A stretch of 64,000 bases of DNA from Arachidicoccus terrestris (GTDB taxonomy: Bacteria > Bacteroidota > Bacteroidia > Chitinophagales > Chitinophagaceae), in NCBI RefSeq assembly GCF_020042345.1, contig NZ_CP083387.1:1984001-2048000 (forward strand). Reading direction: 5' to 3'. The notes under the pieces were generated by a model. The model was not told the origin of the DNA. It saw only the letters and a program-made list of their open reading frames with translations, and ran no database searches. The position numbers and the translations under genes were made by a program. Below, piece after piece: positions 50,775 to 64,000 of this stretch (its first letter is position 1; each line of letters opens with the position of its first letter).

Positions 50775-51659
50775 CTAGTTAATCATTCCCGCAAACAAAG
50801 CCGGGTAGTCCGTTTCGATAATATCAGGCCGCTTAATCAGTTCTTTTATATAGGCATTTTTGCGTTGCGCATTTGTTCTCAGTTTGTCGAACGTCGGGGG
50901 AAAGGAATAAAAGCACATGACGCCTTTATGTCTTAAAAAACGGCAAATATCATTTGTGTTATCTGAGACTGAATCTCCAACATAGGCGATAATCCGGTTA
51001 TATGGAATCTTGGTTGCAATGAAAGCGTTCAGATCTTCCTTTTTTTTAATCGCCACGCACAATAAAACATTATCCAACCGATTATAATAATACAATGCCT
51101 CCTTCATAGAGCGAACACTTAAGATCAGATTCGGATACTTATTATCCTTAAACATTTCAACATACCTTGACCAGGGTATATTTTTATTATCCAGATTAAA
51201 GATCGTCTTGTCTTTGCCCCATTCTAAGGCTTCTACCAACGTTGGAATTCTATAACTCGTCAGGTTCCCCTGACGATCCTTCAGTCTTGCGTTTTTAATT
51301 TCCGCATAGGTATGCGCACTTACCTTTCCTTTCATATCAGATACTCGCTCCAAATCATCATCATGCATCAATACAATAACGCTGTCTTTCGTAAACCTGG
51401 GATCAATTTCAAAAAACGAAGGCATTAAAGTGAGCGTCTTTTCCATGGCTTCTATTGAATTCTCCGGATAACCTGGCAGTAGCCCACCCCGATGTCCGGA
51501 AATAATTACAGGCTTATCGTCTTCATAATGAAAAAACTGCTGCAACTCAGCCATGTTTTTTATAACAGTTCTATGAAGTTTTCTCTGAGCCACACAGGTC
51601 GCTATCGTTAAAACCAGTAAACCGAACAATAATGCAGGGCATTTCACATTCTTAATCAT
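50775..51659 (-). CDS. Glycerophosphodiester phosphodiesterase family (GDPD) protein, secreted
   Basis: Exported phosphodiesterase of 294 residues with a signal peptide (about 1-24, ending TCVAQ). Catalytic and metal-binding residues are in place: His56-Arg57 in GHRGG, PENS at 65-68, Glu84 and Asp86 in FFEIDPRFTKD, and His99 in VLMHDDDLERVSD. The family cleaves glycerophosphodiesters to glycerol 3-phosphate and an alcohol; some members act on teichoic acids or related phosphate-linked polymers. It is the last gene of the long minus-strand array, its start overlapping the sugar-kinase stop by 4 bases, so it is translationally coupled to sugar metabolism. Confidence 0.93.
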   Translation of the reverse strand: MIKNVKCPALLFGLLVLTIATCVAQRKLHRTVIKNMAELQQFFHYEDDKPVIISGHRGGLLPGYPENSIEAMEKTLTLMPSFFEIDPRFTKDSVIVLMHDDDLERVSDMKGKVSAHTYAEIKNARLKDRQGNLTSYRIPTLVEALEWGKDKTIFNLDNKNIPWSRYVEMFKDNKYPNLILSVRSMKEALYYYNRLDNVLLCVAIKKKEDLNAFIATKIPYNRIIAYVGDSVSDNTNDICRFLRHKGVMCFYSFPPTFDKLRTNAQRKNAYIKELIKRPDIIETDYPALFAGMIN

Positions 51660-52555
51660 ATTAATGAACTTTTAAAATTCTCTAAATCTGTTAAAGTATA
51701 GGGGGGACAGCCTCCATTACGCGTCGCAATATAAGCGCTCAAAATAGCAGCCTCTTGTAAAACCTCTTTGTTACCCTTCCCAGAAAGCTTTCCATTTATG
51801 AACGCTGCTAAAAAGGAGTCCCCACTTCCGACAGTATCCTGAACCTGTATTTTGACTCCACGCACATTTACAGATACATCCCTATTATAATAAGAGGCAC
51901 CCTCTGCCCCTTTTGTAAGTATCACTTCGTCCAAATTATCAAAAGCTGATAAAACCAAAGATACCCCTTCATTTTCACTACTACATGATCCTTTACATAA
52001 CCGGCATAGGAAATACAGTTCTTCCAGATTGATTTTAATACTCTTACATGCCCTTATAAGTGGCATAATCACCTCCGGTTCACAATAGGGCTGGCGGAGA
52101 TTGAGATCCAGTATCGGCCAGTTGCAGACTTTAAGATATTCCAGCAACACATTTCTGGTCATTTGGTTTCTGGCGGCTAATGTTCCATACACAAAAGCAT
52201 CCGAATCTGCAATCTCTCCGGCGAGGGTGTCATTGTAAGTGAGGTAATCCCACGCTACAGCCTCTGTAATATCATACTTTACCTCTCCTTCAGGTAAAAG
52301 ATTAACCACCACAGTAGATGTGGGATAGGTTTGTGTCTGAGGGCAGAAGCGTGTATCTATTCCCCAATTTGCAATATGACTGATAAGCTTAACTCCAAGT
52401 GCATCCTGACCCACCTGAGAAACAATGATCGGTTGTCTGTTTAGTTTAGATAAGTGATAACACACATTGAGCGGCGCCCCACCAATTGTTTTTGTCACAC
52501 CAAAATCATCCCACAACACTTCCCCAAAACAAACTATTTTTTTCCCCATTATCAC
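51656..52555 (-). CDS. PfkB-family sugar kinase, fructokinase-like
   Basis: Cytosolic kinase of 299 residues. The N-terminal FGEVLWDDFG and the IGGAPLNVCYHLSKL region match fructokinase-type PfkB proteins, and the C-terminal signature DTVGSGDSFLAAFI supplies the catalytic Asp in GSGD. It phosphorylates a sugar with ATP; fructose is the likely substrate if the preceding dehydrogenase converts mannitol to fructose, but ketoses from other polyols are possible. Its start overlaps the dehydrogenase stop by one base and its end overlaps the GDPD start, so the three genes are translationally coupled. Confidence 0.9.
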   Translation of the reverse strand: MIMGKKIVCFGEVLWDDFGVTKTIGGAPLNVCYHLSKLNRQPIIVSQVGQDALGVKLISHIANWGIDTRFCPQTQTYPTSTVVVNLLPEGEVKYDITEAVAWDYLTYNDTLAGEIADSDAFVYGTLAARNQMTRNVLLEYLKVCNWPILDLNLRQPYCEPEVIMPLIRACKSIKINLEELYFLCRLCKGSCSSENEGVSLVLSAFDNLDEVILTKGAEGASYYNRDVSVNVRGVKIQVQDTVGSGDSFLAAFINGKLSGKGNKEVLQEAAILSAYIATRNGGCPPYTLTDLENFKSSLI

Positions 52556-54042
52556 TAAGATTCTAATAATTGATGAATAAATAACCTTCTCAGTTGGATA
52601 TCAGAATTTGATATACCCTGAACATAGGCAACAAATAACGACTGTGCCGCATCTGAAGACCGAACGGCCTCCAACCCGGGGCCATTGTCCCAGAAAATGC
52701 CAGCATCAAATCCATCAGTGCGGAACAATTCTAAGAGCGTCTCTTTATTCTGATCTACCACCATCGCCATTTCATCCCTTTTAAAAGCAGTTGCCAGGTA
52801 GTAATACCAGGCCGCAATAATCAGCATCCCCCATTTAATCTTTCGGCTTTTTGCGGCCAATTGGTCTGAGATGACCGGTAAAACAAACTTAGGCAGCTTA
52901 TCTGTAGAACCTGATATGATTCTGGCTGTACTGTCGTTGATCATCGGGTTGCTAAACCGGCGTACCAGTTCGTTAATATATTCCATATAATGCACTTCCT
53001 GTATTTCATCCAGCGTATCCATCACTTCCTCCTGACAATAGTGGATATAAACGGCTTTAATAAGAGGATCCGCAATGGCCGTGTGGATTCTGTCATATCC
53101 CAGCAGTTCTCCCAATAGGCCTGTTAAGGAGTGTCCGCCGTTAAGTAGGCGCAGCTTCATCTTTTCATAGGGGGCAACATCTTCGACCAAGGTGGCGCCC
53201 ATCGCTTCATAGGGCAATCCTTTCAGTCTGGGATCATCTTGAATAACCCATTGAAAAAAATCTTCACAAACCACCAGGCATCTATCTTCTAATCCGTAGC
53301 TGGCTGCAAACTCATTTTTCTGTTGCGTGGAAGCTACCGGTGTGATTCGATCCACCATTGTTTTCACAAAGCTAACATGCTCCTCCACCCAGATGATCAA
53401 ATCCCGATCAAATTTCTTTAAAAATTCCAATAGAGCAAAACGAAGGATATCGCCATTGTGTTGCACATTATCACAGGACATCAGTGCGATACCTTGCGCA
53501 CCTGCTTCCATCCGTTGCCTTAGTCCTTCAGCCAGAATTCTGAATATGGTTTGAGGCGTATCTGCCCGTTTCAAGTCACTTTGAATCGAAGGTGTTTCCC
53601 ATATGAATATATGCTTGTCATAATCTACATTATATCCACCTTCCGTAATGGTAAAGCTAATCACTTTTGTATCGTCGCTAGCGATCTTATCTAATATGGC
53701 AGCGTAATCTTTTATGGGATGTAGTAATTCTTTAATGGCACTTACCAGCACATCATGTCTCGAGCCATCTGCCGCGAAACTTTGTACAAAATACAGGCAG
53801 TCCTGCACACGAAGTGCTTCCACAAACGGCAAGTCTCCCGGTAGAATACAAAGACCGCAAATACCCCAGTCGGCATATTTTTCCCGGAAGTTATTTTTTA
53901 AATTTTGCAATGCCCATGCCTGATGCGCCCTATGAAAACCGCCCACTCCGAAATGTACAATAGGCATGACAACGCTTTTACTTTGTTTTTGTGGCAAACT
54001 CAGCAAATCAGCCGACAATGCACTTTCATAGTTTAATATCAT
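52555..54042 (-). CDS. Mannitol dehydrogenase family (long-chain polyol) oxidoreductase
   Basis: Cytosolic NAD(P)-dependent enzyme of 495 residues. The Rossmann region has FGVGGFHRAH (31-40), followed by ISFTITEGGYNVD (about 128-140), characteristic of mannitol 2-dehydrogenase and relatives. The catalytic KxxxxNxxH motif is complete: Lys296, Asn301 and His304 in KLRLLNGGH. The family covers mannitol 2-, arabinitol 4- and related dehydrogenases as well as fructuronate and tagaturonate reductases. Next to a fructokinase-like gene and a sugar importer, oxidation of an imported polyol to a ketose is the simplest reading. The exact polyol cannot be told. Confidence 0.92.
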   Translation of the reverse strand: MILNYESALSADLLSLPQKQSKSVVMPIVHFGVGGFHRAHQAWALQNLKNNFREKYADWGICGLCILPGDLPFVEALRVQDCLYFVQSFAADGSRHDVLVSAIKELLHPIKDYAAILDKIASDDTKVISFTITEGGYNVDYDKHIFIWETPSIQSDLKRADTPQTIFRILAEGLRQRMEAGAQGIALMSCDNVQHNGDILRFALLEFLKKFDRDLIIWVEEHVSFVKTMVDRITPVASTQQKNEFAASYGLEDRCLVVCEDFFQWVIQDDPRLKGLPYEAMGATLVEDVAPYEKMKLRLLNGGHSLTGLLGELLGYDRIHTAIADPLIKAVYIHYCQEEVMDTLDEIQEVHYMEYINELVRRFSNPMINDSTARIISGSTDKLPKFVLPVISDQLAAKSRKIKWGMLIIAAWYYYLATAFKRDEMAMVVDQNKETLLELFRTDGFDAGIFWDNGPGLEAVRSSDAAQSLFVAYVQGISNSDIQLRRLFIHQLLES

Positions 54043-54057
54043 CTAAATAAAATAATT

Positions 54058-54987
54058 TTAACTGCGTTGAAAAAGAACTGCTGCAATAATGATCACCCCC
54101 TTTATAATCTGTTGCAGGTAGGAGGTGATATCCAATAAATTCATGACATTACCGATCATGCTAAGTATAAACACACCCAGTAGTGTATTTAGTAGAGACC
54201 CCCTGCCGCCGGCAAGCGAAGCACCTCCGATCACCACGGCAGCTATCGCATCCAGCTCAAGGCCTATTCCTATATTTGGCGTACCCACGCCGGTACGACC
54301 AACCATTAATAATGCGGCTAAAGCTGTAAGTACGGTACAGATTGCATATACAGCAAACTTTGATTTCTTAACCGCAATTCCAGATAAACGCACCGCTTCT
54401 TCATTGGAACCAATGGCCAGGACAACGCGCCCAAACACATTAAATTTAAGCAGTATATATAAAATAAAGAATACTATTAAAAGAACGACAGCAGAGATCG
54501 GAATTCCCGCTATCGAACCAGACCCGAGGATAAATATATCAGAAGAATGAGGACCGACACTTACCGGTGCTCCCTTTGAGAGCAGGTAGCCGGCGCCTCT
54601 GATCATCGTCATCATTGCTAATGTGACGATAAAGGAAGCAATCTTCCTATAGGCCACAAGGTAACCTGAAATCGCACCCAGCACCAGCCCGATTAACAAG
54701 GATAAAGCAAACGCTACAGGAAAATATACTTCATAGCTCAACAGCGAAAAACAAACACCTATCATTGCAACAACCGATCCGACCGATAAGTCAATGCCCC
54801 CTGTCAGTATTACTAACAACATTCCCATACTTATCAAACCGATCGGCGCAGATTGCCGGATCAAATTGGAGATATTATTTACTGAAAAAAAATTCTGTGT
54901 AATCAGCCCCGATACAATCAACATTAGAATAAAAATAGCGATTGTATTGTACTGATAAAATTTACCAAGGGTTGTTTTAATCCTCAT
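54058..54987 (-). CDS. Ribose-type ABC transporter permease (RbsC-like)
   Basis: Inner-membrane permease of 309 residues with about eight to nine helices. It shows the family motif MGMLLVILTGGIDLSVGSV near 60 and, toward the C-terminus, AAVVIGGASLAGGRGS, the loop that contacts the ATPase. It belongs to the CUT2 class, which imports monosaccharides such as ribose, xylose and polyols. It lies 24 bases after the ATPase gene and 15 bases before the dehydrogenase gene. Confidence 0.94.
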   Translation of the reverse strand: MRIKTTLGKFYQYNTIAIFILMLIVSGLITQNFFSVNNISNLIRQSAPIGLISMGMLLVILTGGIDLSVGSVVAMIGVCFSLLSYEVYFPVAFALSLLIGLVLGAISGYLVAYRKIASFIVTLAMMTMIRGAGYLLSKGAPVSVGPHSSDIFILGSGSIAGIPISAVVLLIVFFILYILLKFNVFGRVVLAIGSNEEAVRLSGIAVKKSKFAVYAICTVLTALAALLMVGRTGVGTPNIGIGLELDAIAAVVIGGASLAGGRGSLLNTLLGVFILSMIGNVMNLLDITSYLQQIIKGVIIIAAVLFQRS

Positions 54988-55011
54988 TATTTAGCTTTTA
55001 TAATTTTATGG

Positions 55012-56484
55012 TTATTCTATAGCCAGCCGAAGCAACTTCTCTTCAGAAAAGCCTTCTTTTAACACCTCTCCTGTAAATACCCCTTTTTTCATTACAGCCA
55101 CCCTGTCACATATGGTCATCAGCTCTTCCAGATCAGAGGAAACGACAATTAACGTTTTTCCTTTATTAGCTAAGTCAAATAAAATATCATATATCTGCGC
55201 TCGTGCTCCGACATCCACACCCCGGGTGGGCTCATCAATCAATAAAATATCTGCACCGCTGTTGATCCATTTGGCAAGAATCACCTTCTGCTGATTGCCT
55301 CCGCTTAGGGAGCCCACTTCCGAATCTATAGATGCGCATTTGATCTTAAGCCGGTCCACGAGGGAGGTAACATTTTTTTGCTCTATCTTCTCTTGAATAA
55401 ATCCAAATGCATTCTTGATCAGGGCGTAATTCGTCATTGAAATATTATCGCGTATGCTACGGCTGAGAATGCCACCATCCTTCTTTCTGTCCTCGGGAAC
55501 CATACCAATCTTCCCGGCCACGCTCATCTTTGGGGAATCTGTCTGAATGTTTACATCATCAATGGACACCTTTTTCCTCTTAGCTCCATCAGCACCGAAA
55601 ATCGCTCTTAAGAGCTCCGTCCTGCCCGATCCTACCAACCCCGCAATGCCCAAAATTTCTCCGGACCTTGCCTCCAATTCAACGTCAGCATTGCCCATGG
55701 GAAGTCTTACGCCTGAAACGCTGAAGATAGAAGGCCGGTTTAAATGTTCCACCGGATTTCTAAACACCCGTTGAAGCGATTTACCTAACATTAAAGCAAT
55801 TAGCTTATCATTGTTCAAATCCTTGTTTTCAACGGTCGCAACAGATTTGCCGTCTCTTAAAACGGTAATACTATCTGAAATCTCCAAGATCTCCGGTAAA
55901 TGATGGGATATATAAATAATGGCAATATTCTTTTTTTTGAGCTTATCCAGTACCTTATACAAAATAGCCACTTCATGCGCCCCCAAGACATCTGAGGGCT
56001 CATCAAAAATTATGAGTTTTATATCTGAAGTCAAGGCTTTAGCAATTTCCACGATTTGTTGTTCAGCAACGCTCAGATTTGCCACCTTTTTCCTTACATC
56101 CAACTGAAACCCCAGACTTTCAATTAAATGGGCAGCATTTTTATAGAGCGCTTTCCAATCAATCCAAAATGAATCTCCCAGTTGATTTAAATATATATTT
56201 TCGGCAGCCGTCAGTTCAGGAACAAGTGAGAACTCCTGATAGATAATCCCTATCCCTTCTTCCCTTGCAGACTTAGGAGAGTCTATATCCCTTTCCTCTC
56301 CATCTATGCGAATTATGCCGGTATCCTTTTTAACAGCCCCCGAAAGGACTTTCATTAATGTGGATTTCCCCGCACCATTTTCACCCAACAAAGCATGGAT
56401 CTTTCCGTATTCAATAGTAAGGTTCACATTATCCAGTGCCTGAATTCCCCCATAACTTTTCGAAATGCCCTTAAGCTCTACCAT
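55012..56484 (-). CDS. Ribose-type ABC importer ATPase, fused double domain (RbsA-like)
   Basis: ATPase of 490 residues with two fused nucleotide-binding domains as in CUT2 importers. Domain 1 has Walker A GENGAGKST (34-42), a degenerate signature LSVAEQQIVEIAKAL and Walker B LIIFDEPSDVLG. Domain 2 has the altered Walker A GLVGSGRTEL (normal for this family), signature LSGGNQQKVILAKW and Walker B ILLIDEPTRGVD. It begins one base after the binding-protein stop. It powers the permease encoded next. Confidence 0.95.
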   Translation of the reverse strand: MVELKGISKSYGGIQALDNVNLTIEYGKIHALLGENGAGKSTLMKVLSGAVKKDTGIIRIDGEERDIDSPKSAREEGIGIIYQEFSLVPELTAAENIYLNQLGDSFWIDWKALYKNAAHLIESLGFQLDVRKKVANLSVAEQQIVEIAKALTSDIKLIIFDEPSDVLGAHEVAILYKVLDKLKKKNIAIIYISHHLPEILEISDSITVLRDGKSVATVENKDLNNDKLIALMLGKSLQRVFRNPVEHLNRPSIFSVSGVRLPMGNADVELEARSGEILGIAGLVGSGRTELLRAIFGADGAKRKKVSIDDVNIQTDSPKMSVAGKIGMVPEDRKKDGGILSRSIRDNISMTNYALIKNAFGFIQEKIEQKNVTSLVDRLKIKCASIDSEVGSLSGGNQQKVILAKWINSGADILLIDEPTRGVDVGARAQIYDILFDLANKGKTLIVVSSDLEELMTICDRVAVMKKGVFTGEVLKEGFSEEKLLRLAIE

Positions 56485-56485
56485 C

Positions 56486-57505
56486 TTAGAATAAGGATTG
56501 CGGATTATAAAATTGATTTACATTCTCGGCGTCAATTACCACTGATTTCGTATAATTCACCTGCTTAATACCTTTTTCATCATTTAAATACCGAACGACC
56601 ACATTTACCATATTCCCTCCTAAAATATCCGGACTGTTTTGAGCCGTAACACTATAAATTCCTTTTTTAATCAATGCATACGCTTCCTTCTGGCCATCGA
56701 CACCCACAACTGCGATTTTCCCTTCCAGCCCCATTTCTTTTATGGTTTTTAAAGCACCGATGGCCATTGCGTCATTTTCTGCAAAAAGCACATTCACATC
56801 CTTGTGTGCCACCAGAATATCTTCCATCGCCTTCAGGCCGCCGTTATTCGTCCAGCCTCCCCAACCCTGGGTAATAATTTTGAAACTCGTGTGATTTTCA
56901 TTATGCAACTGTGCATCTGCGAGTCCTCTAACAAAACCGAGCCTCTTTTCCCGCCCTACTGGATTACCTTGATTCCCACTAATGAAAGCGATTTTAAGCT
57001 GTGACTTTCCAACATGATTGACAACCCACTGTCCAAGCAATTCTCCATTCAACTGATTGTTGGCAACAACGCTGGAAATATACGGAGCGGCGTCATCAAT
57101 AAAACTGTCCAGAATGAACACCGCGACTCCCATTGACTTGGCCTTCTCTACTACCGGAATCAACGCTTTAGGGTCCAGCGGATTAAGAATCAGCACTTTT
57201 ATCCCTTTAGACAGCAAATCCTCTACTGCCAATACCTGTTTATTAATATCGCCCTGACCATCAGTAGACAGATATTGCATTCCATAATGCAACGTATTTT
57301 CCCGAACGGCCTTTTCCAGCGCAACATAAAATGGCGCGCTCAGTGAGGGCGTACAGTAGCCAACTACAATAGCAGACAAATCTTTCTTAGAAACATACAT
57401 ATCCGTGCTATCCTTTAAGGAAAGCTGTTTTTGGCCACGCTGCCCCTCAGGAAGACAAGATGAAAGTAATAAACAAAAAAGTAAACTATAAATACATGAC
57501 TTCAT
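56486..57505 (-). CDS. Sugar-binding protein of the ribose-type importer (RbsB-like), lipoprotein
   Basis: Periplasmic substrate-binding protein of 339 residues. The N-terminus has a lipobox LLSSC with Cys17, so it is probably membrane-anchored rather than free, less usual for an RbsB of a Gram-negative cell. The periplasmic-binding-protein type 1 fold is clear: VGYCTPSLSAPFYVALEKAVRE, KGIKVLILNPLDPKALIPVVEKA, VAVFILDSFID, then AENDAMAIGALKTIKEMG and VVGVDGQKEAY. The ATPase gene follows after one base. The ligand is unknown; polyols or a pentose fit the neighbouring enzymes. Confidence 0.93.
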   Translation of the reverse strand: MKSCIYSLLFCLLLSSCLPEGQRGQKQLSLKDSTDMYVSKKDLSAIVVGYCTPSLSAPFYVALEKAVRENTLHYGMQYLSTDGQGDINKQVLAVEDLLSKGIKVLILNPLDPKALIPVVEKAKSMGVAVFILDSFIDDAAPYISSVVANNQLNGELLGQWVVNHVGKSQLKIAFISGNQGNPVGREKRLGFVRGLADAQLHNENHTSFKIITQGWGGWTNNGGLKAMEDILVAHKDVNVLFAENDAMAIGALKTIKEMGLEGKIAVVGVDGQKEAYALIKKGIYSVTAQNSPDILGGNMVNVVVRYLNDEKGIKQVNYTKSVVIDAENVNQFYNPQSLF

Positions 57506-57517
57506 AATCGATAGGTC

Positions 57518-58957
57518 TTATTTTGTGGGTTGATTCCAGTTGTCGAGTCTGAACAAAGAAACCGGCAATCCATTGCTGGAATATAAATTCGTTAATGTAG
57601 TATCTGAAAAAGCGTATCTCACTGAAACGGGATGCTGGATGGATGGGTTAAACACGATCAGCTTATTTCCGTCAATTTTGTAGGATGCCGGCAAAAATTT
57701 TCTGTCCTTACCTGCTATATATAATCCATGTATTATATCTCCATTATGTACTTCAAGCTTTTCATGATCCATATAATGAAAAGAAATAATGATTCTATTT
57801 TTTTCAATTGTATAGCTTTTTAAAATGGGAGAATAGGGGTTCTTAGAAATTGCATGATAAACATTTACCAGCGCAAGATCCGCCATCCGGATGGCAACTT
57901 CCTTTTTTAGGATCGGATGGATATCATTGATATTATTTACCAGATCCGAGGTCAATACCATAGCGGCATTCTCAACAGACAAAGAAACCTGATTTTGAGC
58001 TTCCCGTACAAGGGCTCCCCGCTGTAAGCCTTTATTCTTATAATTATAGGGGGCTATCTGTGCAAAATAAAACGGAAAATCCTTTTTCCATTTTCTGTGC
58101 CAGGAGTTTATTAGTTTAGAGAACAACCTTGCATAACCGTCCCATGAAACCGTGTTATTTTCACCCTGATACCATAAAGCACCAGTTATTCCATAACCAA
58201 CAAAGGGGTAAATCATCGAGTTCCAGGCCTGGCCGGGCAAATGGGGTTTAAAGGGCGCCAGTTTCTGAAGTCTTGATTTTGCAGAGAGGAAACTATCCGT
58301 TAACACTTCTCCGGCAGGAAGCCAGACTTCTGCACAAGTTCCGCCCCAACTGGCATTAATGACACCAACCGGCACATCCAACGTTTGACTTACTTTCTGA
58401 GCAAAAAAATAGGCTATGGCCGAAAAGGGCCTTAAAGAAACAGAATCACATGTCTGCCACATATCATAAATGTTATCCTGTGGTGTCTCAGATGCAATAT
58501 CCCGTACATTTAAAATTCTAACCTTATTGTTAAATGGGCCATGCAGCACGTCGAGCATTTGGGGTAACTTATGCGCCGCACTTCGCTGCATATTTGACTG
58601 CCCGGAACAAATCCATACTTCGCCCAGCAGCACATCATTTAAAACCAGCGTATCATTTCGACAAATGACACTGATCTTATACGGGCCACCTGCCTTGGCA
58701 GTAGGCAAATCAATTTTCCATTTCGCAGTACCCAATGCCACTGTCTTGATCGTGTCTTCCATCCAACTGGCCTTTACAAAGACTGGCTGTCCCCTCTGCG
58801 CCCATCCCCAAAAGGCGGTTGTCGTATCACTTTTGAGCACCATGTGGTCAGAGAAAAACCTGGGCATTGTAATCTGTCCATACCCAGATAGCAAGAAAAG
58901 AGCCAATATAGCTGTTATCAATATCCTTGTCCGGATTCGCCTTTGCATAGAATACAT
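57518..58957 (-). CDS. Sialate O-acetylesterase-like SGNH hydrolase
   Basis: Secreted esterase of 479 residues with a signal peptide (about 8-28; MQRRIRTR three codons in is an alternative start). The catalytic Ser121 lies in ICSGQSNMQ. The second SGNH block is GALWYQGENN, and the final His in NDIHP with nearby Asp completes the triad. Relatives remove O-acetyl groups from sialic acid or other sugars, and are common in PULs for acetylated glycans including xylans. It lies between LacI and the binding protein gene with 12 to 16 base gaps. Confidence 0.9.
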   Translation of the reverse strand: MYSMQRRIRTRILITAILALFLLSGYGQITMPRFFSDHMVLKSDTTTAFWGWAQRGQPVFVKASWMEDTIKTVALGTAKWKIDLPTAKAGGPYKISVICRNDTLVLNDVLLGEVWICSGQSNMQRSAAHKLPQMLDVLHGPFNNKVRILNVRDIASETPQDNIYDMWQTCDSVSLRPFSAIAYFFAQKVSQTLDVPVGVINASWGGTCAEVWLPAGEVLTDSFLSAKSRLQKLAPFKPHLPGQAWNSMIYPFVGYGITGALWYQGENNTVSWDGYARLFSKLINSWHRKWKKDFPFYFAQIAPYNYKNKGLQRGALVREAQNQVSLSVENAAMVLTSDLVNNINDIHPILKKEVAIRMADLALVNVYHAISKNPYSPILKSYTIEKNRIIISFHYMDHEKLEVHNGDIIHGLYIAGKDRKFLPASYKIDGNKLIVFNPSIQHPVSVRYAFSDTTLTNLYSSNGLPVSLFRLDNWNQPTK

Positions 58958-58973
58958 AATTAAAGTTTATAAA

Positions 58974-59996
58974 TTATTGTCTGTCTGAAGACCTTCGTAT
59001 CACTAATTTTCCAATGAATTCATTTGGTTTTTCGATTAAACCCTGCTCTTTTTGATCAATCTCTTTCAGTAAATATTCGATCGCCGTCTTGCTCATTTCA
59101 GGCAGCGGCTGTTTATAATATGAAACGGGAGTCCTGAATATATCATAGGCCTTGGCTTCATCAAAACAGACAATTCCCAACTGTCCCGGAACTGCTATGT
59201 CAATAGCGGCTATCTTGGACAGTCCCGTCATCGCGACCTTATTGGTAAAGAAACAAAGCCCATCTACTTTATCTCTGTATAAGGCGTTATTAATCACCTC
59301 ATCCATCTGAACATCCATTTGATCCTCTTCCAGCTCATAAATAAACGGGCGGCTACCCAACAATTCCGATGACGCATCCATAAACCCTTCTTTACGTTCC
59401 TGAAGACTAACCAGATTCCTGTTAATCGTTACCGCGCCCAATCGTTTAAACCCGTTATTATAGAGGTGCTCTACAATACTTTTTGAGGCGGCCCGGTTAT
59501 TGAGAAGAATGGCAGGTATCTCAGGATATTCATAAAATTTCCTATCAATTATAACAAAGGGCTTACGCTGATCCTTAAGCATCTGTATGCAAGACTCGGT
59601 TTTTTCCGGCATCGCCAAAATCAGTCCGTCAACTTGCCTGGAGAGCAAAAGTTGTAAGATAGAGTTAAACCTCTTTGGATCTTCATGTGCGCTTCCATAG
59701 ATCACACGGTAGCCGTACTTATCTGCCTCTTCCTCTATATATTTCGCAATTGAAGAATAAAACAAGTTAGAGATATCCGCTACAATCAGGCCCAAAGTTT
59801 GCGTTCGGTTGGTCTTAAGGCTTTTAGCGATTTGATTAGGCGAATAATTCATCTTAGCGGCGAGATCCTTTATCCTGGCAGCTGTATTTTCATTGATTTT
59901 ATCTGTTTTCTTCCCGTTTAACACATAAGATACCAAGGCTACGGAAACTCCGAGTTCGCCTGCAATATCCTTCATTGATACTTTTCTATTTCCCAC
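58974..59996 (-). CDS. LacI-family transcriptional regulator
   Basis: Repressor or activator of 340 residues. The N-terminal helix-turn-helix is VSMKDIAGELGVSVALVSYVLNG (about 5-27) with the hinge segment NYSPNQIAKSLKTNRTQTLG, then the ligand-binding core. It is internal to the array, 36 bases after the phosphoesterase gene, so it is probably autoregulated with its neighbours. LacI-type palindromes with the core GCAAnCGnTTG occur upstream of four other carbohydrate genes in the window, but none is visible directly upstream of this gene. The likely effector is a sugar or polyol moved by the linked importer. Confidence 0.95.
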   Translation of the reverse strand: MGNRKVSMKDIAGELGVSVALVSYVLNGKKTDKINENTAARIKDLAAKMNYSPNQIAKSLKTNRTQTLGLIVADISNLFYSSIAKYIEEEADKYGYRVIYGSAHEDPKRFNSILQLLLSRQVDGLILAMPEKTESCIQMLKDQRKPFVIIDRKFYEYPEIPAILLNNRAASKSIVEHLYNNGFKRLGAVTINRNLVSLQERKEGFMDASSELLGSRPFIYELEEDQMDVQMDEVINNALYRDKVDGLCFFTNKVAMTGLSKIAAIDIAVPGQLGIVCFDEAKAYDIFRTPVSYYKQPLPEMSKTAIEYLLKEIDQKEQGLIEKPNEFIGKLVIRRSSDRQ

Positions 59997-60032
59997 TGAC
60001 TAAATTTTAGACATGAAGTTATAATTAAATGC

Positions 60033-61598
60033 CTAATTTACATAACTGGCAATTCCGGTATAATCGGTCTGTAGACGATTACAACGATAGACGTTTCCAA
60101 ACTTATCCTTTGCGATAATTTCAAAATTAGCATTTGAAACATCACCATTCAACCGGCCTTCAAAAAAATGATTCTCCGATTTATCAAAATCTGATCCCAC
60201 GGCTTTCCCTAATTCTTCCATATGATAATAGGTCGCCCAATAATCCCGGGAGGTAACTCTTTTCATAAGGCCCAGGCTTTTACCATTCTGGTATAATTCC
60301 ACAGTCCAACTGTCATCCGCATCCCAGACATTTGCGACAATCCATCCATCGCCGGAAAGATTCAGGTTCACCGGTGCGCTATAATAATATGTGAATTTCC
60401 CTGCCGGCCCGAAAGCCTGCCGGGCATCGTATGCCCTGATCTGAAAGGAGCGATCATAGTTTGTCGCTTTATAGAATTCATCGACGATCTTTCCATTTTC
60501 AATTTCGAAAACACCATAGCCATTCGGCGTGCCATCTGCACAGACATTTGAATTCCACCACGCCCCGCATGCAGCACCATGAATATACTCATAAATTTTT
60601 TTGCCATTGACTTCATGAATATATTTATCCGGATAGTGTGTGTGCCCTGTCATGATATATGCAGAAGAGAATCTAGATAATAGCTGTAACACCTCGTTAT
60701 AATGCACGTTTGTATTAACGCGACTGCCCGAGCGAAATGGAATATGGGACGCAAAAATCACCATATAATCATCTGAAACATAGGAAAGATCCTGTTCCAG
60801 CCACGCTAATTGCGCATCCGTAATACCACCACTGTACTCCTGTTTCCCGCTGTAGATTACATTATCCATGGCGACCACATGTGTTTTCCCTCTATTAAAT
60901 GAATAATCCGTAGGACCGAAAAAATGCCTGAAATTTTCAGCACTCGCCTCTTCATTCGGCGCAGTTTCGAGGTGATCATGATTGCCAATGACCTGAAAAA
61001 AGGTGACTTTCTGCTTGGACATTGATGCCTTCATTTCACTCCATAAATCAGGAGCATCAAAAACAATGTCTCCCAGTGTCATTGCATAGGGATTCGTTAG
61101 GGAAGGTACAATCTCATTGATGTCAGGGATTGTCTCGTTCCTATAGCGCGATACTTCCTGAATGTTTCTACATTGAGGATCTGCGACGAATAAAAAAGTG
61201 AACTTGGATTCAACAGGCTGGGCAGTTAAGATAAAGTCCTTCCTTATCCATTTGTCAACAGACTCAATCGACTGATAAAAGACAGGATTGTTATCTGCAT
61301 CTACAGCAATTTTATAATTAGAGGGTGTGCTATAGAAAACAAATTTTGCGCGCTTATCCCGTTTGATCTGATAAACACCGTTGGCATCTGTCTTTACTGA
61401 AGAAAAACCATCACTTACCACAACTTCTTTTACAGGTGTACCTTTATCATCTGTAATGACCCCATACAAAGTAGTGCTGTCGCCAATTTTCGTATCATTA
61501 ATGACACCTGGCGGAGGTGCAGGTTGCAGCGTTTCCTTATCTTGCTTGCTACAAGAAAGCAATAGGCATATAAAAGACAGTATATATAGCTTTTTCAT
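60033..61598 (-). CDS. Calcineurin-like metallophosphoesterase lipoprotein
   Basis: Exported lipoprotein of 521 residues with a lipobox CLLLSC (Cys16). Three domains are visible: an N-terminal beta sandwich resembling metallophos_N (about 40-125, YGVITDDKGTPVKEVVVSDG), the phosphoesterase core and a C-terminal metallophos_C-type domain (about 385-521). Metal ligands are Asp140 and Gln142 in VADPQ (Gln where His is usual), Asp177 in LGDIVFD, Asn206-His207 in GNHDH, His285 and His319/His321 in GHTHYPDK. The substrate is unknown. It is 8 bases after SusD, so it is part of the PUL, which points to a phosphorylated glycan. Confidence 0.92.
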   Translation of the reverse strand: MKKLYILSFICLLLSCSKQDKETLQPAPPPGVINDTKIGDSTTLYGVITDDKGTPVKEVVVSDGFSSVKTDANGVYQIKRDKRAKFVFYSTPSNYKIAVDADNNPVFYQSIESVDKWIRKDFILTAQPVESKFTFLFVADPQCRNIQEVSRYRNETIPDINEIVPSLTNPYAMTLGDIVFDAPDLWSEMKASMSKQKVTFFQVIGNHDHLETAPNEEASAENFRHFFGPTDYSFNRGKTHVVAMDNVIYSGKQEYSGGITDAQLAWLEQDLSYVSDDYMVIFASHIPFRSGSRVNTNVHYNEVLQLLSRFSSAYIMTGHTHYPDKYIHEVNGKKIYEYIHGAACGAWWNSNVCADGTPNGYGVFEIENGKIVDEFYKATNYDRSFQIRAYDARQAFGPAGKFTYYYSAPVNLNLSGDGWIVANVWDADDSWTVELYQNGKSLGLMKRVTSRDYWATYYHMEELGKAVGSDFDKSENHFFEGRLNGDVSNANFEIIAKDKFGNVYRCNRLQTDYTGIASYVN

Positions 61599-61606
61599 TT
61601 TACTAT

Positions 61607-63424
61607 TTATTTATTTTTCCACAAGTAGTTTTGCTCAAGATTAGGATTTCTGGTAATCGCTTCTAGCGGTATGGGCCGCAGATACTTATATTCTTCCCAG
61701 ACTCGAGGATAATTCCATATCAGATTACCATCCGCGTCCCTGGAAAAGGTCTGAATAGCTCCGGCACCATTTAATTTAATAGAGTTGGGGGACTCACTGG
61801 AGCCGATCTGAAAATCAGTAACGCCGTCACCATTGAAATCATAGGGCTTGCTTACGTCTGGGACATAGATGCCCTTCCAGGGATTCTCGCTGGAATTCAG
61901 CAATTCTCCTAAATGCCAACGCATCAGATCATCCCAACGAAGGCCGTCTTCCAGGCAGAGCTCAATTGCCCTTTCTCTTCTAATTTCCAACAAAACCGGA
62001 CTGGTTACAGTGTTTCTATAATAAGCCAAAAGATAGGGGTCCGCAGTTGCCGGATAAATTGCCTTAACGCCTGCTCTGTCTCTGGTAAGAGCGATGGTCT
62101 TATTCCAGTCCTCAACCGTAAAAGTCCCCAGCTCTGCTTTAGCTTCTGCATAATTTAGAAGCACTTCTGCATACCGGATGATCGGTAGACTGTTCCAGCT
62201 GGCGGCCCTGGCGGTCACTCCACCTGCATCATTGTCTAAAGAGAATTTAATTGGCTGATATCCCGTTTTTGTGACTAACCAATTAGGCGCATAAAGTTTT
62301 GTGACATTATTCTGAGTCATCATATACTCAGGTGATATAACAGTTTGCATCAAGCGGTAGTCCCTGTTCGTAAACTCTTCAGAAAATGTCTTTGTCTTAT
62401 ACGACGAACTATTCGTGAAAGGGGTGCCATCCAGGTTCAAATAACTATTAATAAATGTCTTTGTGAGAGATACCCTACTACCATAAGTAGGTGAAAAGTA
62501 TAACCAGGTAAGATCATGTAAAATAGCTAAGTCATTACTATAGGACCTTCCCCAGATCACTTCTTGCTTCTTTAAAGCAGCGGAGGTGAACAAACTTCTG
62601 TAAGCCGTTTTAGGATCACCTGTAACTAAGCTATAAACACCGGAATTCATGACCATTGTTGCGGCGTCAACAGCAGCGGTCAGGAACTTTTTAATAGCCG
62701 CATCCCTGTTTTGCCAACTCTTTCCGGTTGATGGGTCAGTTGCATGATACTTCCTATAGGTGCCTTCAAAAAGGGCCACCCTGGACAGATACGCGGCAGC
62801 AATCCATTTATTGATAACCGATGCGCTACTGGTATATTTATCCGAGGACGAACAATTTTCAACTGCAAACTGCAGGTCCTGAAGGACTTTGTCCATAACA
62901 AATTCACGGGAGTCCCTGGGCTTTTGCAGTGCATCCACATCACTGCTGTTGATAACCTCCTGGTAATAAGGTACACCTCCAAAGGTCTGCACCTTATCAA
63001 AGTAAAATACGGCTCTCCAAAAACGGCCTACACCTTCATAGTGGTTATAAACTTCTTCGCTAACTTTTCCTTTGGCCCTGGGTAAGTTATTTAAAAAATA
63101 ATTTATATTCCTGAGGTTCGACCATGAACTCTCAGACCAGCCCCCTTGATTTTCCGGAGAGACATTTCCGTCAGTTCTCAAAAGATCTGTTGGGATCTGG
63201 ACGGCGCAATAATCAGCATTAATATCACTGTAGCCTATAGTAGATGCAGAGGGTGTCATTTTCTGAATAAATCCATTGGCATACAATTCCAAATCCGTCT
63301 CTGACGCAAAATAGCTTCCTGCGCTCACTGAATCATAGGTATCACGGTCCATAAATTTGGAGCAACTTATAGTGCCCATTACGAGGCTACAGCTCACTAT
63401 CGTATATATTAATCTTGTCTTCAT
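61607..63424 (-). CDS. SusD/RagB-family nutrient-binding lipoprotein
   Basis: Surface lipoprotein of 605 residues. The signal peptide ends VMGTISC with Cys21, then SKFMDRDTYDSVSAGSYF. RagB/SusD signatures are present: VGRFWRAVFYFDKVQTFGGVPYYQE, YAEVLLNYAEAKAELG, ALTRDRAGV and EIRRERAIELCLEDGLRWDDLMRW. It starts 10 bases after the SusC stop and is followed 8 bases later by the metallophosphoesterase gene. Confidence 0.95.
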   Translation of the reverse strand: MKTRLIYTIVSCSLVMGTISCSKFMDRDTYDSVSAGSYFASETDLELYANGFIQKMTPSASTIGYSDINADYCAVQIPTDLLRTDGNVSPENQGGWSESSWSNLRNINYFLNNLPRAKGKVSEEVYNHYEGVGRFWRAVFYFDKVQTFGGVPYYQEVINSSDVDALQKPRDSREFVMDKVLQDLQFAVENCSSSDKYTSSASVINKWIAAAYLSRVALFEGTYRKYHATDPSTGKSWQNRDAAIKKFLTAAVDAATMVMNSGVYSLVTGDPKTAYRSLFTSAALKKQEVIWGRSYSNDLAILHDLTWLYFSPTYGSRVSLTKTFINSYLNLDGTPFTNSSSYKTKTFSEEFTNRDYRLMQTVISPEYMMTQNNVTKLYAPNWLVTKTGYQPIKFSLDNDAGGVTARAASWNSLPIIRYAEVLLNYAEAKAELGTFTVEDWNKTIALTRDRAGVKAIYPATADPYLLAYYRNTVTSPVLLEIRRERAIELCLEDGLRWDDLMRWHLGELLNSSENPWKGIYVPDVSKPYDFNGDGVTDFQIGSSESPNSIKLNGAGAIQTFSRDADGNLIWNYPRVWEEYKYLRPIPLEAITRNPNLEQNYLWKNK

Positions 63425-63434
63425 AATTATTTGC

Positions 63435-64000
63435 TTAAAAGTTTACTGAAACACCCAAAGTGATGTTTTTCAACATCGGATAAGAATAACCGTTTCCTGT
63501 TCCACCCAGGCCTGCCGTTGTTGAAGCGGCAAAATCAGTATCTCCGGATTCGATCACTTCCGGATCAAACATTTTTGTATGTTTAAACATAGGAGAATAG
63601 GTCCATAAATTTTCTCCAGTCAAAAATATTCGCGCGGATGTAAACCCGATAGCTTTTATCCATGTTGCAGGGAGATTATAGTCAATGGTAATATTCTTTA
63701 ATCTCACATAAGCCACATTTTGCAGATAGTGTGAATTCTCCCATGTAAGTGGTCCATCATTTCGATTGGCAGCCAGTGAGACCGAACGGGTCCAGTAAGG
63801 ATTCTTATCCATATTGGTAACCACCCAATTTTCCGTCGTCTTATCGACCTGTACGATATTGTCGCCTGTTTGAGTCTTCAGCAAGCTATTATAAGCCCGG
63901 TTATGCTGGCCCCAGAAGAAGCCGGATTCTGTCCACGGGTACCAGTCACGTTTTAATACACCCTGGAAAAATGTAGATAGCCCAAACCCTTTCCAGTTCA
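63435..64000 (-). CDS. SusC/RagA-family TonB-dependent receptor, C-terminal fragment
   Basis: Open frame of 188 codons reaching the right edge of the window; the gene begins beyond it. The reading frame stays open through 64000 without a start (visible residues WKGFGLSTFFQGVLK, YPWTESGFF). The C-terminal barrel pattern of SusC proteins is clear, with YVRLKNITIDYNLP, FLTGENLWTYSP, FDPEVIESGD and the end ITLGVSVNF. It is the first gene seen of the large minus-strand array. Confidence 0.93.
   Translation of the reverse strand, partial: NWKGFGLSTFFQGVLKRDWYPWTESGFFWGQHNRAYNSLLKTQTGDNIVQVDKTTENWVVTNMDKNPYWTRSVSLAANRNDGPLTWENSHYLQNVAYVRLKNITIDYNLPATWIKAIGFTSARIFLTGENLWTYSPMFKHTKMFDPEVIESGDTDFAASTTAGLGGTGNGYSYPMLKNITLGVSVNF

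Follow-up and report, generated by a model that had tools for sequence, protein, structure and literature searches.

A packed SusCD and ABC importer locus of Arachidicoccus terrestris with a predicted role in the release, import and catabolism of a hexitol

The right-hand part of the window, by which we mean the whole stretch of 64,000 nucleotides analyzed here (G000:C1:1984001-2048000, within the 4.9-Mb genome of Arachidicoccus terrestris, whose family, the Chitinophagaceae, is called f1 below), carries a minus-strand row of eleven packed genes that joins SusC and SusD to an ATP-binding cassette (ABC) importer of the CUT2 type, a polyol dehydrogenase, a sugar kinase, a LacI-family regulator, an O-acetylesterase, a metallophosphoesterase and a GDPD-family protein. 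This locus is best explained as a Zobellia-type hexitol operon to which a LacI switch, exchangeable SusCD modules and a phosphodiesterase have been added. More specifically, we lean towards the view that, under LacI control, it releases a hexitol (probably mannitol) held in phosphodiester-linked material, takes this up through the ABC system and converts it to fructose-6-phosphate. The observation holds up, and the arrangement is rare and coherent: the core is known in kind, and what is new is its coupling to phosphodiesterases and SusCD, with a GDPD gene directly behind the core in all five f1 core loci, exchangeable SusCD and a common palindrome.

The families of the row were confirmed with Pfam and NCBIfam, and signal-peptide and lipoprotein starts were judged by eye. 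In order of transcription, and in window coordinates, the genes are:

63435..64000, minus strand: SusC, 3' part in the window; the complete gene, L009:13435-16764, extends beyond the window end
61607..63424, minus strand: SusD (Pfam, NCBIfam)
60033..61598, minus strand: metallophosphoesterase with a lipoprotein-like start (Pfam MetallophosN/Metallophos/MetallophosC)
58974..59996, minus strand: LacI-family regulator (Pfam LacI and Peripla_BP)
57518..58957, minus strand: SASA-family O-acetylesterase (Pfam SASA)
56486..57505, minus strand: RbsB solute-binding protein with a lipoprotein-like start (Pfam Peripla_BP_4; structure 4RY9)
55012..56484, minus strand: RbsA, CUT2 double ATPase (Pfam, NCBIfam)
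54058..54987, minus strand: RbsC, CUT2 permease (Pfam, NCBIfam)
52555..54042, minus strand: long-chain polyol dehydrogenase, mannitol 2-dehydrogenase-like (Pfam Mannitol_dh, Mannitol_dh_C; structure 1LJ8)
51656..52555, minus strand: PfkB kinase, fructokinase-like (Pfam PfkB; closest structure 2QHP)
50775..51659, minus strand: GDPD, the last gene, of the 3MZ2 subtype, with a signal-peptide-like start (Pfam GDPD)

The tight packing described in a first-pass annotation, made from the letters of the window alone, is borne out: the gaps in the open reading frame listing measure 1-36 bases (10, 8, 36, 16, 12, 1, 24 and 15 from the SusC side downward). Where it spoke of several overlaps there are two, of 1 base between dehydrogenase and PfkB and of 4 bases between PfkB and GDPD, and its list had the families right, though its title passed over the LacI regulator in mid-row. 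As in a polysaccharide utilization locus (PUL), SusC and SusD are adjacent, 10 bases apart, and stand with degradative genes; none of the eleven genes matched a glycoside hydrolase or polysaccharide lyase family. The earlier statement that a glycosidase is lacking is hence correct for these eleven genes, but it does not carry over to the homologous locus of genome G623, where two GH106 genes stand behind SusCD.

RbsB found matches (E<=1e-25) in five of 393 further family genomes. Four of these matches, at 62-80% identity, lie in orthologous loci (genomes G623, G414, G425 and G612, which with the window genome make up the five core genomes), and the fifth, at 32%, was discarded as something else, being part of a 959-residue frame next to another SusCD. 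A core of LacI and RbsB-RbsA-RbsC-mannitol dehydrogenase-(PfkB)-GDPD recurs in all four, with RbsC 66-79%, RbsA 51-74% and the LacI homologues 46-68% identical to the window copies. The eleven-gene order, for which the first-pass annotation had suggested a conservation check, was not found in these four loci; the inner core alone is kept. The G623 locus reads LacI-SASA-RbsBAC-dehydrogenase-PfkB-GDPD, followed by SusC-SusD-GH106-Exo_endo_phos-GH106; that of G414 reads LacI-RbsBAC-dehydrogenase-GDPD, with a pectinesterase in addition; and those of G425 and G612 comprise an extra GDPD, LacI, SusC, SusD, a BACON/FGE lipoprotein, another GDPD and RbsBAC-dehydrogenase-PfkB-GDPD. The BACON/FGE proteins (L052:14183-15574 and L054:12780-14204) are fusions of BACON with an FGE-sulfatase domain, placed between SusD and GDPD in both loci, and a 28% relative stands close behind two GDPD-like genes in another stretch, L127.

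In three of the other core loci SusCD is placed differently from the window, at two other positions. Further, because SusC of the other core loci is only 24-34% identical to the window SusC, and its best matches in the four genomes (33-39%) sit outside the core loci, the outer half of the locus appears, by this comparison, to have been swapped and the inner half retained. Among the hydrolases, the metallophosphoesterase has no match in any of the four homologous stretches, and the SASA esterase has a counterpart (73%) in the equivalent position of G623 and none inside the cores of G414, G425 and G612 (in G414, matches of 34-40% lie roughly 8 kb past the core, on the opposite strand). Across the five loci, the half for import and catabolism and the half with SusCD and hydrolases appear to have been exchanged separately.

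What holds the two halves together is an operator-like palindrome. In a search of 14 intergenic regions, ATTTAAWCGWTTAAAT was found, with small variations, twice ahead of SusC in the window genome (one of these copies is degenerate), ahead of LacI in the four other loci, and also ahead of SusC in G623 and of the extra GDPD in G425. A copy of the form ATTTAAACGTTTAAAT lies 116 bases before the SusC start of the window genome (L009:16881-16896, outside the window). The exact 14-mer core, TTTAAWCGWTTAAA, occurs at eight sites in the five core genomes, all eight inside the locus and preceding LacI, SusC or an extra GDPD; the site before the extra GDPD of G612 lies outside the regions used to derive the motif, so that it was predicted rather than fitted. 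The palindrome therefore links SusCD to the importer genes, even in G623, in which the two are separated, and LacI is predicted to be the protein that binds it. The window itself has no 14-mer site within two mismatches, in line with a single promoter before SusC, and the eleven genes presumably form one transcript. A promoter and terminator scan of L009 gave counts no higher than those in shuffled sequence (40 versus 42.8 and 11 versus 15.3).

The proteins of the core lend themselves to a coherent reading. The closest structure to the dehydrogenase is Pseudomonas mannitol 2-dehydrogenase, 1LJ8 (151 identical of 400 aligned columns), and nine of nine of its residues E133, N191, D230, E292, K295, N300, H303, R373 and K381, which we take to be catalytic or substrate residues, are kept. 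PfkB is closest to the fructokinase structure 2QHP (E 2.2e-41). The importer has the RbsB-like binding protein, tandem ATPase and RbsC-like permease of a CUT2 system. Its RbsB is closest in sequence (41%) to 4RY9 (VEIS_2079 of Verminephrobacter), which is also the closest fold to a predicted model of low confidence (pLDDT, the predicted local distance difference test, 65.3) used for the fold match alone; the ligand in 4RY9 is presumably D-talitol, on which a search of papers yielded nothing useful. All importer proteins fall under every NCBIfam cut-off among the rows shown, that for ribose included, and ribose import was rejected on this ground (RbsC 259/398, RbsA 458/745 and RbsB 122.5/337 bits against the RbsABC equivalog cut-offs). 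SusCD, CUT2 importer, polyol dehydrogenase and sugar kinase can plausibly be read as one hexitol path. Of the complete route from uptake to phosphorylation proposed in the first-pass annotation, this much stands, with the palindrome tying SusCD to the importer; a conserved eleven-gene order is not supported.

The GDPD has a partial profile match in Pfam (65.3 bits) and 3MZ2 as its closest structure (E 4e-67). Its residues H56, R57, G58, E66, N67, E84, D86 and H99 are invariant across the five orthologues, and the His-Arg, Glu-Asn, Glu-x-Asp and His among them are, we assume, the motif residues of the family. Three GDPDs each are present in G425 and G612, the middle copy of G612 being seen by tblastn only. 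Relatives of the window GDPD (E<=1e-40, 31-43% identity) occur in 12 of 186 family genomes, core ones counted; 10 of 12 further places were inspected, and in seven of these ten stretches the relative is the last gene of a different operon, which also encodes a histidine phosphatase, a 2-hydroxyacid dehydrogenase and two FGGY kinases (families assigned by Pfam for L124 and by eye for the other six). These operons lie in L121-L127, and the one at L124:9671-16403 has an MFS transporter in front. That relatives end another catabolic operon is a hint, though no proof, that the subtype serves carbon catabolism.

Based on these observations, we propose the following working of the locus. SusCD would bring a larger phosphodiester-linked molecule across the outer membrane, and the metallophosphoesterase, GDPD, a divergently encoded Exo_endo_phos protein and the O-acetylesterase would cut the hexitol free at the surface and in the periplasm. 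RbsB would then bind the hexitol and RbsAC import it with ATP, the mannitol 2-dehydrogenase-like enzyme would oxidize it, turning mannitol into fructose, and PfkB would yield fructose-6-phosphate; an inducer would free LacI from the palindrome between SusC and the divergent genes. The substrate is accordingly predicted to be held by ester or phosphoester, in particular phosphodiester, bonds, the hexitol is probably mannitol, and GDPD is the candidate for cleaving its phosphodiester. If the phosphodiester reading is true, it would suggest that polyol-phosphate wall polymers can serve as food through such a locus. A more specific version, which we regard as doubtful, makes the locus a dedicated one for hexitol-phosphate polymers or lipids, such as poly(mannitol phosphate) from the wall of certain actinobacteria, with fragments taken up by SusCD, release in the periplasm, ABC import and mannitol-type catabolism. 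Such polymers are documented for the wall of Brevibacterium iodinum in a passage of PMC6801904, and nothing in our analysis ties the window locus to them. Were this version correct, Bacteroidota would possess a teichoic-acid-type feeding system, with outer-membrane and phosphodiesterase modules grafted onto a mannitol operon; in the openly licensed literature no description of such a polyol-phosphate locus was found, the nearest papers being judged by title and opening lines.

Several observations weigh against the account of a LacI-controlled path from phosphodiester-linked hexitol to fructose-6-phosphate. The nine dehydrogenase residues are all kept by 13 of the 14 polyol dehydrogenases compared, and thus are not specific to mannitol, and the top NCBIfam model for the enzyme is D-arabinitol 4-dehydrogenase (NF043014), at 299.1 bits, below its cut-off of 600. 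Chains titled beta-1,3(4)-glucanase are among the matches of the middle GDPD in G425, so that the family name is no proof of phosphodiester cleavage, and the Exo_endo_phos protein beside SusC has as its closest structure, weakly, the mannosyl-6-phosphatase 4C1R. The core of G414 is without PfkB, no SusCD was found within the 40 kb examined around it, and its LacI frame as read starts after the DNA-binding part. As for the 14-mer, ten control genomes gave four matches, which by eye lie in a phage-like stretch, before an aquaporin-like gene (with a SusD-like match 8 kb away), in an unrelated stretch and near a 38% LacI homologue; the reversed pattern matched once each in G623, G425 and the control genome G396. 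The rarity of the 14-mer is therefore modest, and its count is partly circular, because most of the locus sites defined the motif.

The same dehydrogenase data bear on an alternative in which the imported polyol is a pentitol or a rarer hexitol (D-arabitol, altritol/talitol or sorbitol), for example of fungal or lichen origin, which we hold to be unlikely, though the likeliest of the alternatives. Besides the D-arabinitol model, it draws on the long separate branch that the core-locus dehydrogenases form in the tree and on the top-ranked plasmid permease (52%), which comes from the lichen isolate Lichenicola cladoniae and lies by an FGGY kinase and SDR enzymes. However, the PfkB that adjoins the dehydrogenase is fructokinase-like and so fits a ketohexose, and none of the eleven genes matched an FGGY kinase.

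Slightly less probable is an ordinary operon for free mannitol or mixed polyols, in which GDPD, metallophosphoesterase and SusCD are hitch-hikers that scavenge phosphate and lipid headgroups and have no link to the hexitol. Importer-dehydrogenase-kinase sets exist in two genomes of another family, f55, free of GDPD and SusCD; G414 has importer, dehydrogenase and GDPD in the absence of SusCD; and the GDPD relatives of the seven FGGY-kinase operons count on the same side. Against it speak the retention of GDPD directly behind the core in five of five f1 loci, the three GDPDs of both G425 and G612, and the palindrome upstream of the extra GDPDs in these two genomes and of SusC in G623. Finally, a myo-inositol locus, with CUT2 inositol import, PfkB as IolC and phosphoinositides as the source, can be set aside as very improbable: iolC does top the NCBIfam list for PfkB (76.7 of the 300 bits needed) and RbsB has the myo-inositol-binding protein 4IRX among its matches, but IolE reaches its cut-off in none of the five core genomes (weaker matches occur in all five), the eleven genes include no inositol dehydrogenase family, and PfkB is nearest to a fructokinase structure.

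Turning to the wider distribution of the importer, the premise that ABC sugar importers are rare in the phylum holds in our samples: a CUT2 permease homologue (E<=1e-20) is present in 10 of 395 genomes of the class, window genome included, and in 25 of the 396 sampled from the order, and RbsB (E<=1e-25) in 5 of 183 of the phylum, again with the window genome. For plant-associated Bacteroidota, a passage of PMC11892949 reports that high-affinity sugar ABC importers are lacking, that uptake is TonB-dependent instead and that solute-binding proteins for monosaccharides are omitted. The set of importer, dehydrogenase and kinase is in itself no new combination: two of the five phylum genomes with an RbsB match, G1201 and G1177 of family f55, carry a compact RbsB-RbsA-RbsC-dehydrogenase-PfkB (RbsB 41% and 45%, RbsC 54% identical) that resembles the Zobellia operon. 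Each f55 set is preceded by an unassigned gene of some 300 codons, and no GDPD or SusCD was matched within the 18-20 kb fetched; a 26% LacI-family gene lies about 6 kb from one operon, with none near the other, and the dehydrogenase copies are only 38-39% identical to that of the window.

The dehydrogenase alone is more widespread, with matches in 51 of the 395 class genomes, five of which, besides the window genome, reach at least 34%. Around those five (12-20 kb) neither a CUT2 importer nor a GDPD of the window type was matched; two have an adjacent MFS transporter, three a protein of 571-573 residues without a Pfam match, and one, L057, a 27% match to a generic ATPase. Scanning genome contigs with the dehydrogenase yielded a single locus, in Pseudomaricurvus, with transporters of other types by eye. 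We further collected 22 CUT2 stretches (nine from other class-sample genomes, four of seven further places and nine from the order sample, of which ten genomes with mostly weak matches, family f80, were left out). SusC or SusD was matched in six of the 22, and in one, from G242, the importer is followed by SusCD at less than 1 kb on the same strand. Since this stretch repeats the arrangement, the pairing of CUT2 and SusCD is rare, yet not unique.

A FastTree phylogeny of RbsA and RbsC, from selected rows (the best plasmid hits and a small number from a spread list; the truncated or over-long rows of Dysgonomonadaceae, R. beringeri and G327, as well as G166 and G783, were omitted from the trees), groups the f1 with the f55 cassettes (support 1.0), beside four polyol-type importers of Pseudomonadota (0.999) and separate from 20 other CUT2 systems of Bacteroidota. 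A direct transfer of the cassette from Pseudomonadota to the family was allowed by a first tree and dropped once the f55 operons joined the clade; given this single clade, a transfer, if any, would be older. The window genome also has a second, unrelated CUT2 importer (L061:3604-12756; C1:2818604-2827756), whose neighbors are a weakly sulfoquinovose-isomerase-like protein (86/700 bits), transketolase-like frames seen by eye and a GlpK-like kinase.

Within the locus, the metallophosphoesterase finds weak matches only among solved structures, to purple acid phosphatases. Beyond the window, divergent from SusC on the plus strand, follow a BACON lipoprotein, an fn3 lipoprotein and the Exo_endo_phos/FG-GAP protein. 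Past this arm, off the right end of the window (L010:1936-16000 and L062:1-5196), lie GH43, GH3 and GH92 genes (a first GH92 assigned by Pfam, another by eye), followed by SusD- and SusC-like frames, also by eye, on the minus strand. Two proteins between GH3 and GH92 have weak GDE_C or GH94 matches only and are, we assume, GH125-like; this stretch is a probable alpha-mannan PUL.

The significance of the locus lies in a high-affinity-type importer that shares a packed gene row with SusCD, and a common palindromic site in a second genome. Comparable systems bring out which parts are familiar. Polyol CUT2 importers of Pseudomonadota (plasmids of Rhizobium, Sinorhizobium, Paraburkholderia and Lichenicola; 4RY9) are related in RbsB (40-42%), RbsA (43-46%) and RbsC (43-52%). 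Three annotated stretches (L108, L109 and L137) have other dehydrogenases throughout and an FGGY kinase in two; in L108-L110 and L137 no GDPD or mannitol dehydrogenase was matched in flanks of 9-10 kb. The G242 locus (L086:5101-13971), RbsA-RbsC-RbsB-SusC-SusD on one strand with SusCD within 1 kb, shows the same type of coupling as the window; it differs in an RbsB only 21% identical and in having no match to the dehydrogenase, kinase or GDPD of the window type in the 17 kb fetched. With the SusCD PULs of Bacteroidota, the window row has in common the SusCD pair, lipoproteins, hydrolases and a dedicated regulator, and it differs from them in a LacI within the operon, CUT2 import at the inner membrane, and phosphoesterases and an esterase in place of glycosidases. 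Closest is the mannitol operon of Zobellia galactanivorans, which, in the work of Groisillier and colleagues from 2015 (Appl Environ Microbiol 81:1799), reportedly comprises three ABC importer genes, a mannitol 2-dehydrogenase and a fructokinase; the window core agrees in gene content and order with this reported arrangement, and the order is the same in G1201 and G1177. The Zobellia study is cited in passages of PMC6298971 and PMC9296495, in the former on growth on free mannitol. Unlike that operon, loci of the window type possess a LacI regulator, a recurring palindrome, a GDPD in five of five cases and SusCD in four of five.

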